Below, one piece after another: positions 6,552 to 18,122 of a stretch of DNA of 24,532 nt. The translations under genes and the position numbers were made by a program. Each line of letters begins with the position of its first letter. Position 1 is the first letter of the stretch. Under the pieces are notes generated by a model that saw only the letters and a program-made list of their open reading frames with translations, was not told where the DNA came from and made no database searches. Source of the stretch: a virus; the IMG/VR virus record IMGVR_UViG_3300042914_000241, positions 1 through 24,532 of that record, one strand, 5' to 3'.

Positions 6552-6812
6552 ATGAAAACAATTAAGCATTACGCAACTTGGTTTAAGGAATTAAACTCAG
6601 ACGAAAGAGATACGCTAGCAGGCGCAGTCATTGCAGTTTTATTCGTGTTTATTTTGATTTGGCTGCAGAGTACAAATAGCTATCCTGTACTAGATGCTAA
6701 AACACGAAACCATCAAACGTACCAAAAGCAAAGCTACGAGCTTAAACCGTCTTTTGATAAATACGTCAATCACGTTTACAATGATAAATTCGGATCAGAT
6801 GAGCAACGTTAA
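6552..6812 (+). CDS. Small single-pass membrane protein
   Basis: The 86-residue product has one clear transmembrane helix (about residues 21-39, TLAGAVIAVLFVFILIWLQ) after a charged N-terminus that contains DERDTLAG. The C-terminal ~45 residues are polar and Lys/Tyr-rich. It starts three bases after the preceding stop and overlaps the next gene by 14 bases. Small early membrane proteins of phages may act in superinfection exclusion or membrane remodelling, but no motif here indicates which. The function is unknown. Confidence 0.6.
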   Translation: MKTIKHYATWFKELNSDERDTLAGAVIAVLFVFILIWLQSTNSYPVLDAKTRNHQTYQKQSYELKPSFDKYVNHVYNDKFGSDEQR

Positions 6813-7200
6813 TTTAGATTTAGTTATTCAGTTCATTAAAGAAAAAGGATTGGATAAAAAATGCCGGAAGCGAGAAAAGGCGTATGTTAGGCAATACTTA
6901 ATTTATAAGTTAAGAAATACAAACCTATACGCTTGGTCGGAATTAGGCAAATTGTTTAACAGGGATCACGCTACAATGATTTACTCCTATAGGCAGCACG
7001 AAGCGCTTAAGAACGATCGCTTTTATCTCAGAACTATTCAAGAAGCTGCAAATGTTTTTGACGATGCTACGTTGCAATACGTTCCGGAGCCAAGAGATAT
7101 CTTTGTAGATATTCAGAAAGCAAACAACTTAGATGGCCTGCGCAGAATTAAGCGCTGGATCAAAGAAGGATTGTACGAACTACAAACAGAAAAGCTATGA
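6799..7200 (+). CDS. DnaA domain IV-like DNA-binding protein
   Basis: I start at ATG 6799 (133 residues) rather than the further upstream start at 6694, because the extra 35 residues lie in the frame overlapping the preceding gene. Residues about 27-72 look like DnaA domain IV: a basic helix (KREKAYVRQYLIYKL), then YAWSELGKLFNRDHATMIYS with the RDHAT element (55-59) that in DnaA contacts the DnaA box. No AAA+ domain is present. A stand-alone DnaA-like DNA-binding domain may bind phage origin sites or compete with host DnaA. The C-terminal ~60 residues are helical and unassigned. It overlaps the next gene by ATGA. Confidence 0.7.
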   Translation: MSNVNLDLVIQFIKEKGLDKKCRKREKAYVRQYLIYKLRNTNLYAWSELGKLFNRDHATMIYSYRQHEALKNDRFYLRTIQEAANVFDDATLQYVPEPRDIFVDIQKANNLDGLRRIKRWIKEGLYELQTEKL

Positions 7201-7752: not shown

Positions 7753-8042
7753 ACCAAGAACAATACTCAGAAGCGGTAAAACGCAATTTAGAAAAGCTAA
7801 TCGTACTAACTGCCATACTTCCGGTGTTAGGTGATTATATCGAAGATTTAAACGATGCTAACGTATTTAAGCATAACATCAAACGCAAGGCCTCAATGTT
7901 TCTGGAGGAGATCCAAAAGACGGACAGGTTGATAATTAACTATTCTGATCCTAAAGCAATGGAGCAGCAGGTAGATATCCAACGCGCGTTTCGTGTTTGG
8001 GTAAAAGAAAACTTTAGCTTTGAGAAGTTGTTAGAAGAATAA
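7749..8042 (+). CDS. 97-residue helical early phage protein
   Basis: The protein is almost entirely helical, with a hydrophobic first half (NLEKLIVLTAILPVLGDYIEDL) and a charged second half that ends VWVKENFSFEKLLEE. It starts by ATGA overlap with the previous gene and its stop lies only a few bases before the -7 element of the promoter at 8047-8054. It is the last gene of the first early operon. It resembles conserved small proteins of flavobacterial phages, but no function is known to me. Confidence 0.6.
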   Translation: MNQEQYSEAVKRNLEKLIVLTAILPVLGDYIEDLNDANVFKHNIKRKASMFLEEIQKTDRLIINYSDPKAMEQQVDIQRAFRVWVKENFSFEKLLEE

Positions 8043-8046
8043 TTAT

Positions 8047-8054
8047 TATATTTG
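8047..8054 (+). promoter_or_regulatory. Promoter -7 element of the nucleotide-metabolism cassette
   Basis: TATATTTG at 8047-8054, within ATTATTATATTTGTT, matches the -7 consensus and the other early promoters here. There is no TTTG at the ideal 19-base spacing; the nearest candidates are TTTG at 8019-8022 and GTTG at 8027-8030. It points into the structured leader and the four-gene cassette. Confidence 0.6.
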
Positions 8055-8139
8055 TTGACGACGTGCAGGTCGCATAAAACATTATTGAAAGCTCTTTTAG
8101 TGAGTACCGCTGCACCGGGAAAACTGAAAGGGCTTTTTT
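8055..8139 (+). ncRNA. Structured leader RNA with possible pseudoknot
   Basis: Between the promoter and ATG 8157 the RNA can form a large hairpin (8088-8101 with 8123-8136) whose 21-base loop contains CTGCAC (8110-8115). That loop segment is perfectly complementary to GTGCAG (8063-8068) near the 5' end, so a loop-to-leader pseudoknot is possible. The 5' segment can instead fold locally as CGAC (8059-8062 region) with GTCG (8069-8072 region). Alternative pairings just ahead of a T-run are typical of riboswitches and attenuators. No known RNA class is recognised. Confidence 0.5.
8088..8139 (+). terminator. Terminator-like hairpin in the cassette leader
   Basis: AAAGCTCTTTTAGT (8088-8101) pairs with ACTGAAAGGGCTTT (8123-8136) as a 14-pair stem with two G-U pairs, followed by T residues to 8139. 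It lies 17 bases before the first cassette gene, so it would attenuate transcription unless read-through is controlled. Confidence 0.65.
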
Positions 8140-8156
8140 ATTTAAAAATAAAATCA

Positions 8157-8423
8157 ATGAATATTTTAGAAAAAGCAAATGAAATTGTAAATCTTCGTCA
8201 AGAAGAAAAAGAAAGGCAATATGGTGATTTCCATTTGTCAATGCAAAAAACAGCTGAAATAGCTTCTTTAATGTCAAATAAACAAATATCAGTGCGAGAG
8301 TGCTATAATGTTTTAATAGCTTTAAAATTAGCCAGACAATCAAATGCTCATAAAGAAGACAACTTGCTAGATGCTGTTGCATATATGGGTTCTTTAAATG
8401 ACTATTTAAATAAAATTTTATGA
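8157..8423 (+). CDS. DUF6378-like phage protein
   Basis: I use ATG 8157 (88 residues) because the earlier in-frame TTG (8052) lies inside the promoter and structured leader. The protein is helical and carries the pattern seen in DUF6378-type phage proteins: EKANEIVNLRQEEKERQYGD near the start, then LIALKLARQ (about 54-62) and HKEDNLLDAVAYMG (about 66-79). The HKEDNxLD motif recalls all-alpha nucleotide-hydrolase folds, but no catalytic claim can be made. It is the first gene of the cassette and overlaps the next gene by ATGA, so it may act together with it in nucleotide metabolism. Base composition is AT-richer than in the genes before it. Confidence 0.65.
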   Translation: MNILEKANEIVNLRQEEKERQYGDFHLSMQKTAEIASLMSNKQISVRECYNVLIALKLARQSNAHKEDNLLDAVAYMGSLNDYLNKIL

Positions 8424-9199
8424 ACAATTTTGAACAAATGTATTCGGCTGTAATGTCAGCTTGTATGAAAACAGGAATTAAGGTCAACGGTAGGAATGGC
8501 CGTGTGCGGCAAATAACAGCAGCCCAAATTAGAGCGAATGTTAATGAAGGTTTTCCGGTAGTTACTGGCAAACAAATATTTCCTAGATCTTGTTTTGTTG
8601 AAACCGAATGGCTTTTATCTGGGAATACTAATATTCAGTTTTTAAATAATAATAAAGTGCACATTTGGGATCAATGGGCAAATGAAAATGGCGATTTAGG
8701 CCCTGTTTACGGACATCAATTAAACAACTTTAACGGTATTAACCAAGTATTAAGTGTTTTAAGTGACTTTAAATTAAATAAACACTCAAGAAGATTACTG
8801 TTCACAATGTGGAATCCTACTCAATTGCAGGACATGGCTTTGCCACCTTGCCATTACGCTTTTCAATTTGTAATTGCAAATGATAAAGTTGACGTTGTAG
8901 TTTCAATGCGATCGCTAGATTTGTTTGTTGGATTGCCTTATGACGTTGTTATGTATGCTTCAATATTGTGCGCTTTTGCTAATGAGTTTAATTTAAAAGC
9001 AAATGAAGTAGTTATAAATGCTGCAAATGCTCACGTTTATGAAGAGCACGTAAGTTCTGCTGCTATATATTGTAGCCGAAAAAAATTAAAGCTACCTGTA
9101 TTAACTTCTTGCAGCACTTTTACAAATTTTAAATTTGATGAAATGAAAATTGAAAATTATAAGTATGAACCAAGATTAATTGTTAACGTTATAAAATAA
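8420..9199 (+). CDS. Thymidylate-synthase-fold enzyme, probable dCMP hydroxymethylase-type
   Basis: This 259-residue protein has the full thymidylate synthase fold pattern: ETEWLLSGNTNIQFL (about 61-75), IWDQWANENGDLGPVYG (82-98), phosphate-binding SRR (123-125), the catalytic loop PPCHYAFQF with Cys144, RSLDLFVGLPYD (164-175) and HVY (205-207). In thymidylate synthase the position of residue 175 is an Asn that selects dUMP (E. coli Asn177); here it is Asp. Asp at this position is the hallmark of dCMP hydroxymethylases (T4 gp42 Asp179), and engineered Asn-to-Asp thymidylate synthases prefer dCMP. The likely reaction is therefore methylene-tetrahydrofolate-dependent 5-hydroxymethylation (or methylation) of dCMP. 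The neighbouring MazG-like gene could supply dCMP. Ordinary thymidylate synthase remains possible but less likely. Confidence 0.75.
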   Translation: MNNFEQMYSAVMSACMKTGIKVNGRNGRVRQITAAQIRANVNEGFPVVTGKQIFPRSCFVETEWLLSGNTNIQFLNNNKVHIWDQWANENGDLGPVYGHQLNNFNGINQVLSVLSDFKLNKHSRRLLFTMWNPTQLQDMALPPCHYAFQFVIANDKVDVVVSMRSLDLFVGLPYDVVMYASILCAFANEFNLKANEVVINAANAHVYEEHVSSAAIYCSRKKLKLPVLTSCSTFTNFKFDEMKIENYKYEPRLIVNVIK

Positions 9200-9204
9200 A
9201 AAAT

Positions 9205-9507
9205 ATGAAATTAAAAAATGAGTTTAGGCCTATAAGAATTTGGGCTACTGAAAAAGGCATTTATGCAAAAGGAGACATTAAAACGCAATATGTTAAACTG
9301 CAAGAAGAGGCTGGCGAATTAGCTAAAGCAATTATAAATAATGATAAAAACGAAATTATTGATGCTATTGGGGATTGCGTTGTTGTTTTAACTAGTTTAG
9401 CCCATTTTTCTGATATAACTATAGAAGAATGTATAAACTCGGCTTATAATGTAATTTCAAAAAGAAATGGTAAAATGGTTAATGGTAGTTTTATAAAAAA
9501 TAAATAA
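9205..9507 (+). CDS. MazG-like nucleotide pyrophosphohydrolase
   Basis: This 100-residue helical protein has the MazG metal-binding pattern: QEEAGELAKAI (residues 33-43, with Glu34, Glu35 and Glu38) followed by EIIDAIGD (50-57, ExxD), and it ends in a typical KRNGKMVNGSFIK tail. Such enzymes cut nucleoside triphosphates to monophosphates and pyrophosphate. Next to the dCMP-type synthase, an attractive substrate is dCTP, which would lower unmodified dCTP and supply dCMP, as the unrelated dCTPase gp56 does in T4. Substrate preference cannot be read from sequence. It lies five bases after the preceding gene and one base before the nuclease-like gene, all in one AT-rich block. Confidence 0.7.
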   Translation: MKLKNEFRPIRIWATEKGIYAKGDIKTQYVKLQEEAGELAKAIINNDKNEIIDAIGDCVVVLTSLAHFSDITIEECINSAYNVISKRNGKMVNGSFIKNK

Positions 9508-9508
9508 T

Positions 9509-9928
9509 ATGAGAGAGTACTTAGCAAAAATTAGAATACCTGAAGAGCTAAAAAATGAGTCAACAGGGTTTATTGGTGAAAAAATATTTGAATTATGGTT
9601 TACATATAACTATCAGGACGAGCCATTGTTTAAACAAAAAGCTGATATGGATTTAAATGGAGTAGATTTTGCTGATTCTCAGGGAACTACCTATCAAGTT
9701 AAAACAACAAAAGCAAAGACATACACGTTTAATTGCGATTTAGAGCACGCTGGACAGCATTTAAAATGTTCAAGATACATATTTATACAATTAACCGATA
9801 GGCACGCTTATATTGAGCCTATTTATGAAAAAGAAAATATTTTAACCAAATTAAAAAAGTCTTTTAAAGAAGAAAAACAATGTTTTGTATATTGCAAAGA
9901 TTTGTTACAGAGAGACCTCTTTATTTAA
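9509..9928 (+). CDS. PD-(D/E)XK-like nuclease
   Basis: This 139-residue protein has the restriction-endonuclease-fold signature: a helix with Glu (GEKIFELW, Glu24), then GVDFAD (Asp53) and a strand YQVKTT where Gln63 and Lys65 form a QxK variant of the (D/E)xK motif. It matches small phage and restriction-associated nucleases in outline. It sits downstream of the dCMP-type synthase and MazG-like genes. If phage DNA contains a modified cytosine, this nuclease could degrade unmodified host DNA, as T4 endonucleases do; this is an inference. Other possibilities are a recombination or DNA-degradation role without modification dependence. The coding sequence is AT-rich like the rest of the cassette. 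Confidence 0.6.
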   Translation: MREYLAKIRIPEELKNESTGFIGEKIFELWFTYNYQDEPLFKQKADMDLNGVDFADSQGTTYQVKTTKAKTYTFNCDLEHAGQHLKCSRYIFIQLTDRHAYIEPIYEKENILTKLKKSFKEEKQCFVYCKDLLQRDLFI

Positions 9929-17597: not shown

Positions 17598-18122
17598 ATG
17601 ATAATTGAAAAAAGGAAGCTCAGCGAATTAAATGCCGCTCCTTACAACCCAAGACAAAGCACGGCTAAACAAGAAAAGCAATTAAAAGCAAGTTTAGAAA
17701 AGTTTGGTTTAGTAGAGCCTGTAATTTACAATAAGCGAACAGGCTATATTGTAGGAGGCCATTTCAGAGTTAGAGAATTACAAAAACTCGGATGCAAAGA
17801 AATAGACTGCGTTATAGTAGACCTAAGCAATGAAGACGAAAGAGAATTAAACATACGTCTTAATGCAAACACAGGCGAATGGGATTGGGACATGCTAGCT
17901 AACGAATGGAATGATAAGGATTTAAAGGATTGGGGTTTGAATATTCCCGTAGTAATAGACGAATTAAAATTAGACCAAACAACAATAGACAATAATAAAC
18001 CTGCATCTTTAAAAATTACATTTAAAACAATAGAGCAATTACAGGAAGCTGAAAACGATATACTAGAACTAATCGATAGAAAATATTATGGAGCAACCTA
18101 TAAGCTACATATACCAAAATAA
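17598..18122 (+). CDS. ParB-like nuclease/partition-domain protein
   Basis: This 174-residue protein has the ParB N-terminal fold: LSELNAAPYNPRQ (8-20) with NPR at 17-19, and GGHFRVRELQKLG (53-65), the GGHxR-type phosphate-binding motif. Residues about 78-115 include an acidic-helical segment (EDERELNIRLNAN and EWDWDMLANEW). Phage ParB-like domains are found in front of terminase genes, often near methyltransferases, and may act in packaging site recognition, DNA cleavage or nucleotide binding (CTP in true ParB). No methyltransferase is visible here. It precedes the small terminase by 19 bases. Confidence 0.7.
   Translation: MIIEKRKLSELNAAPYNPRQSTAKQEKQLKASLEKFGLVEPVIYNKRTGYIVGGHFRVRELQKLGCKEIDCVIVDLSNEDERELNIRLNANTGEWDWDMLANEWNDKDLKDWGLNIPVVIDELKLDQTTIDNNKPASLKITFKTIEQLQEAENDILELIDRKYYGATYKLHIPK

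Follow-up and report, generated by a model that had tools for sequence, protein, structure and literature searches.

The window analyzed here, that is, the whole stretch of DNA examined, is a 24.5-kb IMG/VR viral contig (24,532 nucleotides). An open reading frame at positions 8420-9199 of its plus strand encodes, from an ATG start and without internal stop, a protein of 259 amino acids that resembles thymidylate synthase (TS) and is called the query below. The upstream DUF6378 gene overlaps this gene by 4 bases, a MazG/PRA-PH gene starts 5 bases after it, and a minus-strand ORF opposite its start (8014-8571) is taken as a shadow ORF. The features concerned are the following:

8160..8423, plus strand: DUF6378 protein, a possible accessory, directly upstream in 19/22 query-clade loci
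8420..9199, plus strand: TS-fold protein with Asp175, predicted dCMP C5-methylase (Pfam, alignments, AlphaFold model)
8840..8842, plus strand: codon of Leu141 (E. coli L143; T4 gp42 Asp145), the residue separating methylases from hydroxymethylases (alignment, PMC6400193)
8849..8854, plus strand: codons of the catalytic Cys144 and of His145 (E. coli C146, H147) (alignment)
8942..8944, plus strand: GAC codon of Asp175, the base-selecting position (alignments)
9205..9507, plus strand: MazG/PRA-PH all-alpha nucleotide pyrophosphohydrolase, proposed to perform the dCTP-to-dCMP step (PF03819 1.7e-7, PF01503 3.5e-7)

Three further genes on the plus strand are recorded as separate observations. Two genes downstream of the TS-like gene, a conserved 139-amino acid protein (9509-9928), present in 14 of the 22 query-clade loci, has a D...QVK pattern (D53...QVK) resembling PD-(D/E)XK nucleases; its AlphaFold model is of low confidence (pLDDT 71), with neither a PDB fold match nor a family match above cut-off. 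The gene at 17598-18122 encodes a ParB N-terminal-like protein of 174 amino acids; type II methyltransferase models (PADLOC MTase_II 9.8e-25) match it with their N-terminal portion, and it has no methyltransferase part. A DnaA C-terminal DNA-binding domain (PF08299, 7.1e-9) is present in a small protein encoded at 6694-7200, close to where the early region starts; this protein is possibly a phage origin-binding or replication decoy protein.

The query matches PF00303 (Thymidylat_synt) over residues 7-256 (E = 3.5e-68), and its AlphaFold model (pLDDT 96.7, pTM 0.93) resembles E. coli TS (1tys) with TM scores of 0.94/0.92. With a full-domain match and a model of the same fold, it is a member of the TS fold superfamily. 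Alignment to E. coli ThyA (~35% identity) pairs R25 with R21, E61 with E58, W83 with W80, W86 with W83, Y97 with Y94, R124/R125 with R126/R127, L141 with L143, C144 with C146, H145 with H147, R164 with R166, S165 with S167, D167 with D169, D175 with N177, H205 with H207 and Y207 with Y209. ThyA is thus like the query in fold (TM 0.94), in L143, H147, W80, W83, Y94, E58 and R126/R127 and in tail length, but differs in Asn177 and in the end of its tail (PVAI versus NVIK). The original prediction, made from the DNA letters, had named Cys144, Arg124-Arg125 and His205-Tyr207 as catalytic residues, had noted a constant offset of two at Cys144 and Arg164, and had placed Asp175 where the dUMP-selecting Asn sits in E. 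coli; the alignment bears out each of these points. The check that it proposed, an alignment combined with a structure model, puts Asp175 opposite N177 within a TS fold. Positions 143, 147 and 177 are hereafter numbered as in E. coli ThyA and correspond to Leu141, His145 and Asp175 of the query.

The exchange at position 177 is conserved. The gene is found at 85-99% identity on ten contigs of viral_contigs, and all ten proteins of one alignment, made up of the query and nine relatives at 85-99% identity, have Asp175; it is likewise present in ten further, more diverged relatives, down to 39% identity (12-member alignment), so that about 20 viral contigs show it without exception. This conservation rules out a sequencing error or a one-off substitution. 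The equivalent residue is Asn in 80/80 of the nearest TS genes of bacterial and archaeal genomes, and Asn177 is the mark of dUMP-specific TS (EC 2.1.1.45), in place of which the query has Asp. In the MetaGPA study, N177D TS is described as shifting its preference from dUMP to dCMP with 5mdCMP as product, published N177D/N229D mutants are cited as favoring dCMP, and, among TS residues, Asp177 shows the main enrichment in contigs whose cytosine is modified (PMC8670742). The earlier statement that Asn-to-Asp TS variants switch to dCMP agrees with this study. The engineered dCMP methylases ThyA N177D and L. casei N229D are direct points of comparison, as N177D yields the residue combination of the query. 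Cytosine rather than uracil is therefore the likely base of the predicted enzyme, a specificity that is well supported, and with the base-selecting residue exchanged, the cytosine building block of DNA is probably what is methylated. That the protein still acts as a thymidylate synthase, tolerating Asp175 and converting mainly dUMP to dTMP for phage DNA, appears quite unlikely: all but residue 177 is TS-like and the gene is the sole TS gene in each long Asp177-clade record, yet Asp is fixed in the clade down to 39% identity against Asn in all 80 nearest cellular enzymes, the cited mutants favor dCMP (PMC8670742), and the gene is linked to a pyrophosphohydrolase that is missing from Asn-type phage TSs.

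Whether such an enzyme would add a methyl or a hydroxymethyl group can be judged from position 143. In T4 gp42, Asp145, located three residues before the Cys, activates the attacking water and the D145N variant makes no 5hm-dCMP; the T4 ternary complex yields a hydroxymethylase signature of Asp at Cys-3, Ser94 and absence of the C-terminal tail (PMC6400193). Asp145, Ser94, Thr149 and Asp179 are invariant across the 81 T4-type dCMP hydroxymethylases checked. SPO1 gp29, a dUMP hydroxymethylase, pairs Asp at Cys-3 with Asn at the 177 position, so that in T4 gp42 and SPO1 gp29, the two characterised phage hydroxymethylases, the Cys-3 Asp tracks hydroxymethylation whichever base is used. The pairs at positions 143/177 are Leu/Asn in TS, Asn/Asp in the XP12-like phage DLP4 and Leu/Asp in the query, and from the combination of Leu143 with Asp177 the enzyme is predicted to methylate dCMP reductively, giving 5-methyl-dCMP. 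The query shares with T4 gp42 the Asp at the base position, the Cys nucleophile and the fold superfamily. It has a tail, which gp42 lacks, and differs further in Leu141, Pro95-Val96, His145 and Trp86, where gp42 has Asp145, Ser94, Thr149 and Val85. Neither Asp/Glu at Cys-3 nor Ser/Thr at T4 position 94 occurs in the query; it retains Trp83, Trp86, Leu141, His145 and Tyr97 as the base, and its tail is as long as that of TS, ending level with E. coli I264 instead of being absent as in the T4 type. Leu143, Trp83, His147 and the TS-length tail are conserved in the query clade, and among the 123 Asp177 proteins with TS-like motif context Leu143 is kept in 118 and His147 in 116.

The original prediction of a probable dCMP hydroxymethylase consequently stands in part: the TS fold, the Asp at the base position as in T4 gp42 (D175 aligns with D179), cytosine as the likely base and the option of 5-methyl-dCMP are retained, and the hydroxymethylase assignment, for which the T4 signature is missing, is not. 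On the Leu at Cys-3, the absence of Ser94, the Trp residues and the tail, we rejected a reaction in which water instead of hydride adds to the methylene intermediate to give 5-hydroxymethyl-dCMP and THF. This reading is unlikely, in spite of the match of Asp175 with D179, the divergent final tail residues, which might admit water, and the fit of a clade without dihydrofolate reductase (DHFR) to a THF-producing enzyme. The lack of a Cys-3 Asp/Glu and of a Ser94 equivalent, the presence of Leu141, Trp86 and a full-length tail, the inactivity of T4 D145N (PMC6400193) and the absence of a glucosyltransferase or carbamoyltransferase among the window genes examined all argue against it. 'dCMP methylase' is the better name, and 'hydroxymethylase' is probably wrong. 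Two features count against the methylase reading: the last tail residues, NVIK, depart from the TS consensus, and His147 is kept even though position 147 comes second among the residues that distinguish modified from unmodified contigs (PMC8670742).

The MetaGPA modified-cytosine contigs carry TS genes that are like the query in Asp177 and in the co-occurrence of a PRA-PH pyrophosphohydrolase (PF01503), but that also differ at position 147, where the query keeps His; methylase-type and hydroxymethylase-type active sites are not separated in the sections of the study used here (PMC8670742). The query itself combines Asp177 with a non-Asp143 active site (D175, L141, W83, W86, tail), which are the residues expected of a deoxycytidylate C5-methyltransferase (EC 2.1.1.54). 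This activity is known from phage XP12, in whose DNA all C is replaced by 5mC. The XP12 lineage is represented in our comparison by its close relatives DLP4 and AXL1, which are like the query in Asp177, a non-Asp residue at Cys-3 and an adjoining nucleotide pyrophosphohydrolase, but unlike it in Asn143, Pro147, Phe83, the lack of a TS-like tail, an operon with dCMP deaminase and DHFR, and their position in a separate clade.

The gene following the query encodes a protein in which the acidic metal-binding residues E34, E35, E38, D53 and D57 conserved in the MazG/PRA-PH family are present. Of 129 Asp177 loci, 116 have a MazG-like gene no more than 1.5 kb away, compared with 0/120 Asn177 loci, and PF03819 occurs in 21/21 long Asp177-clade records versus 0/25 Asn177 records; these counts are clade-dependent and not phylogenetically independent, and thus describe an association rather than many independent events. 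The exceptions among the Asp177 loci are mostly cut contigs or other Asp lineages. Two of these other Asp lineages, the XP12-like one and that of L101, likewise have a PRA-PH gene next to the Asp177 TS. PF01503 is found in 3/37 Asn177 records, and in two of the three its distance to the TS gene is ~5 kb and 34 kb, respectively. Counting against a specific role, MazG homologues are common in phages generally, being present in 1,120 phage records, some without a TS nearby; a Riemerella-type phage, for instance, has a MazG relative with no TS annotated nearby. We infer the role as dCTP-to-dCMP supplier, and with it a module leading from dCTP over dCMP to 5-methyl-dCMP, from the gene linkage. The proposed role is similar to that of T4 gp56, which supplies dCMP from dCTP and limits plain dC. 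The HKEDNLLDAVAY region of the DUF6378 protein appears MazG-like by eye, so that two pyrophosphohydrolase-type genes may flank the TS-like enzyme. In the larger Asp177 clade (e.g., L048:7979-8746, minus strand), the MazG partner is ~250-280 amino acids long and has an extra conserved N-terminal domain fused to the pyrophosphohydrolase domain; this extra domain begins YYIYHIPGKKIGVTR... and is GIY-YIG-like by eye.

The genes that are absent have to be weighed as well, although the window is a fragment and gene absence is therefore weak evidence. DHFR is found in 0/21 long Asp177-clade records versus 6/25 Asn177 records (Fisher p about 0.02), which counts against the methylase reading because a methylase produces DHF; a DHFR gene is present in DLP4, which is related to the 5mC phage XP12. 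No thymidylate-kinase-type kinase was found in the window, and phosphorylation of 5-methyl-dCMP to 5-methyl-dCTP would accordingly depend on host kinases or on an unrecognised gene. A dCMP deaminase was found in none of the 21 long records of the query and larger clades. This bears on a detour to thymidylate, in which dCMP would be methylated and 5-methyl-dCMP then deaminated to dTMP with no modified base in the DNA; a dCMP deaminase does adjoin the Asp177 TS in the L096, XP12-like and L101 loci, but its absence from all 21 long records means that a host deaminase would be needed, and we regard this route as very improbable. In an early-branching relative of the query clade (L096:603-2259, minus strand), dUTPase and dCMP deaminase flank an Asp177 TS with Phe at 147, an arrangement that is possibly an intermediate pathway.

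At least 120 stretches of viral_contigs match the DNA pattern for Asp177 in a TS-type motif context, so that Asp177 TS-like enzymes are common in phages. In a FastTree phylogeny, the 12 proteins of the query clade are grouped inside TS, with a support of 89, with a larger clade of 57 proteins, for which we use the working label 'marine clade' without assigning a habitat. A mixture-model tree of fewer rows retains both clades without joining them and requires at least four Asn/Asp changes; the two trees thus conflict on whether the clades are sisters. The T4-type group forms a separate clade (support 100). A small Asp177 TS lineage (L051, L059, L081, L115; QRSADAFLGLPFD) is separate and long-branched and represents a further Asn/Asp exchange; its loci, too, contain MazG-like genes. 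A DNA search with a relative from the larger clade returned mostly T4-type phages matching at the thymidylate synthase gene, and the whole window gave no match in a nucleotide search against phage records. The nearest isolate terminases are those of Flavobacterium psychrophilum phages (54.5% identity), a similarity that suggests a Bacteroidota host, albeit only as a lead. No published description of the query clade or of its MazG pairing was found in a search of openly available literature.

In our best explanation, held with moderate confidence, the gene encodes a natural dCMP C5-methylase (5-methyl-dCMP synthase) derived from TS by an Asn to Asp exchange, with MazG supplying dCMP and 5-methyl-dCTP entering the phage DNA. 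The dUMP-selecting Asn of a TS ancestor would have been exchanged for Asp while the remaining methyl-transfer machinery was retained. Cys144 would attack C6 of dCMP, Asp175 would hold the cytosine and protonate N3, and methylene-THF would provide the one-carbon unit, after which the closed, Trp/Leu-lined active site would permit hydride donation by THF to give 5-methyl-dCMP and DHF. The adjoining MazG-type pyrophosphohydrolase probably converts dCTP to dCMP and would thereby lower dCTP, and 5-methyl-dCTP could then replace some or all dC in the phage DNA and block restriction. Within this explanation, fold, residues, conservation and gene linkage are observed in the present analysis, whereas substrate, product, MazG role and the base in the virion DNA are predicted from them.

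More tentatively, environmental viral contigs may hold a large undescribed phage group with a two-gene module of dCTP pyrophosphohydrolase and dCMP methylase and genomes containing 5mC for much or all C, the methylase being the natural counterpart of the 1992 N177D TS mutant, with an origin of its own, apart from those of the T4 and XP12 enzymes. To our knowledge, very few phages are known in which 5mC replaces C completely, XP12 being the textbook case. If this clade replaces C by 5mC, pre-replicative cytosine methylation would be far more widespread than known. If the reading is true, two residues would allow prediction, 177 for the base and 143 for methyl versus hydroxymethyl; the clade would put the classic N177D specificity switch to a natural test, and caution would be due in annotating every Asp177 TS as a hydroxymethylase. 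For the phages themselves, methylated cytosines of this kind could make their DNA resist restriction enzymes.
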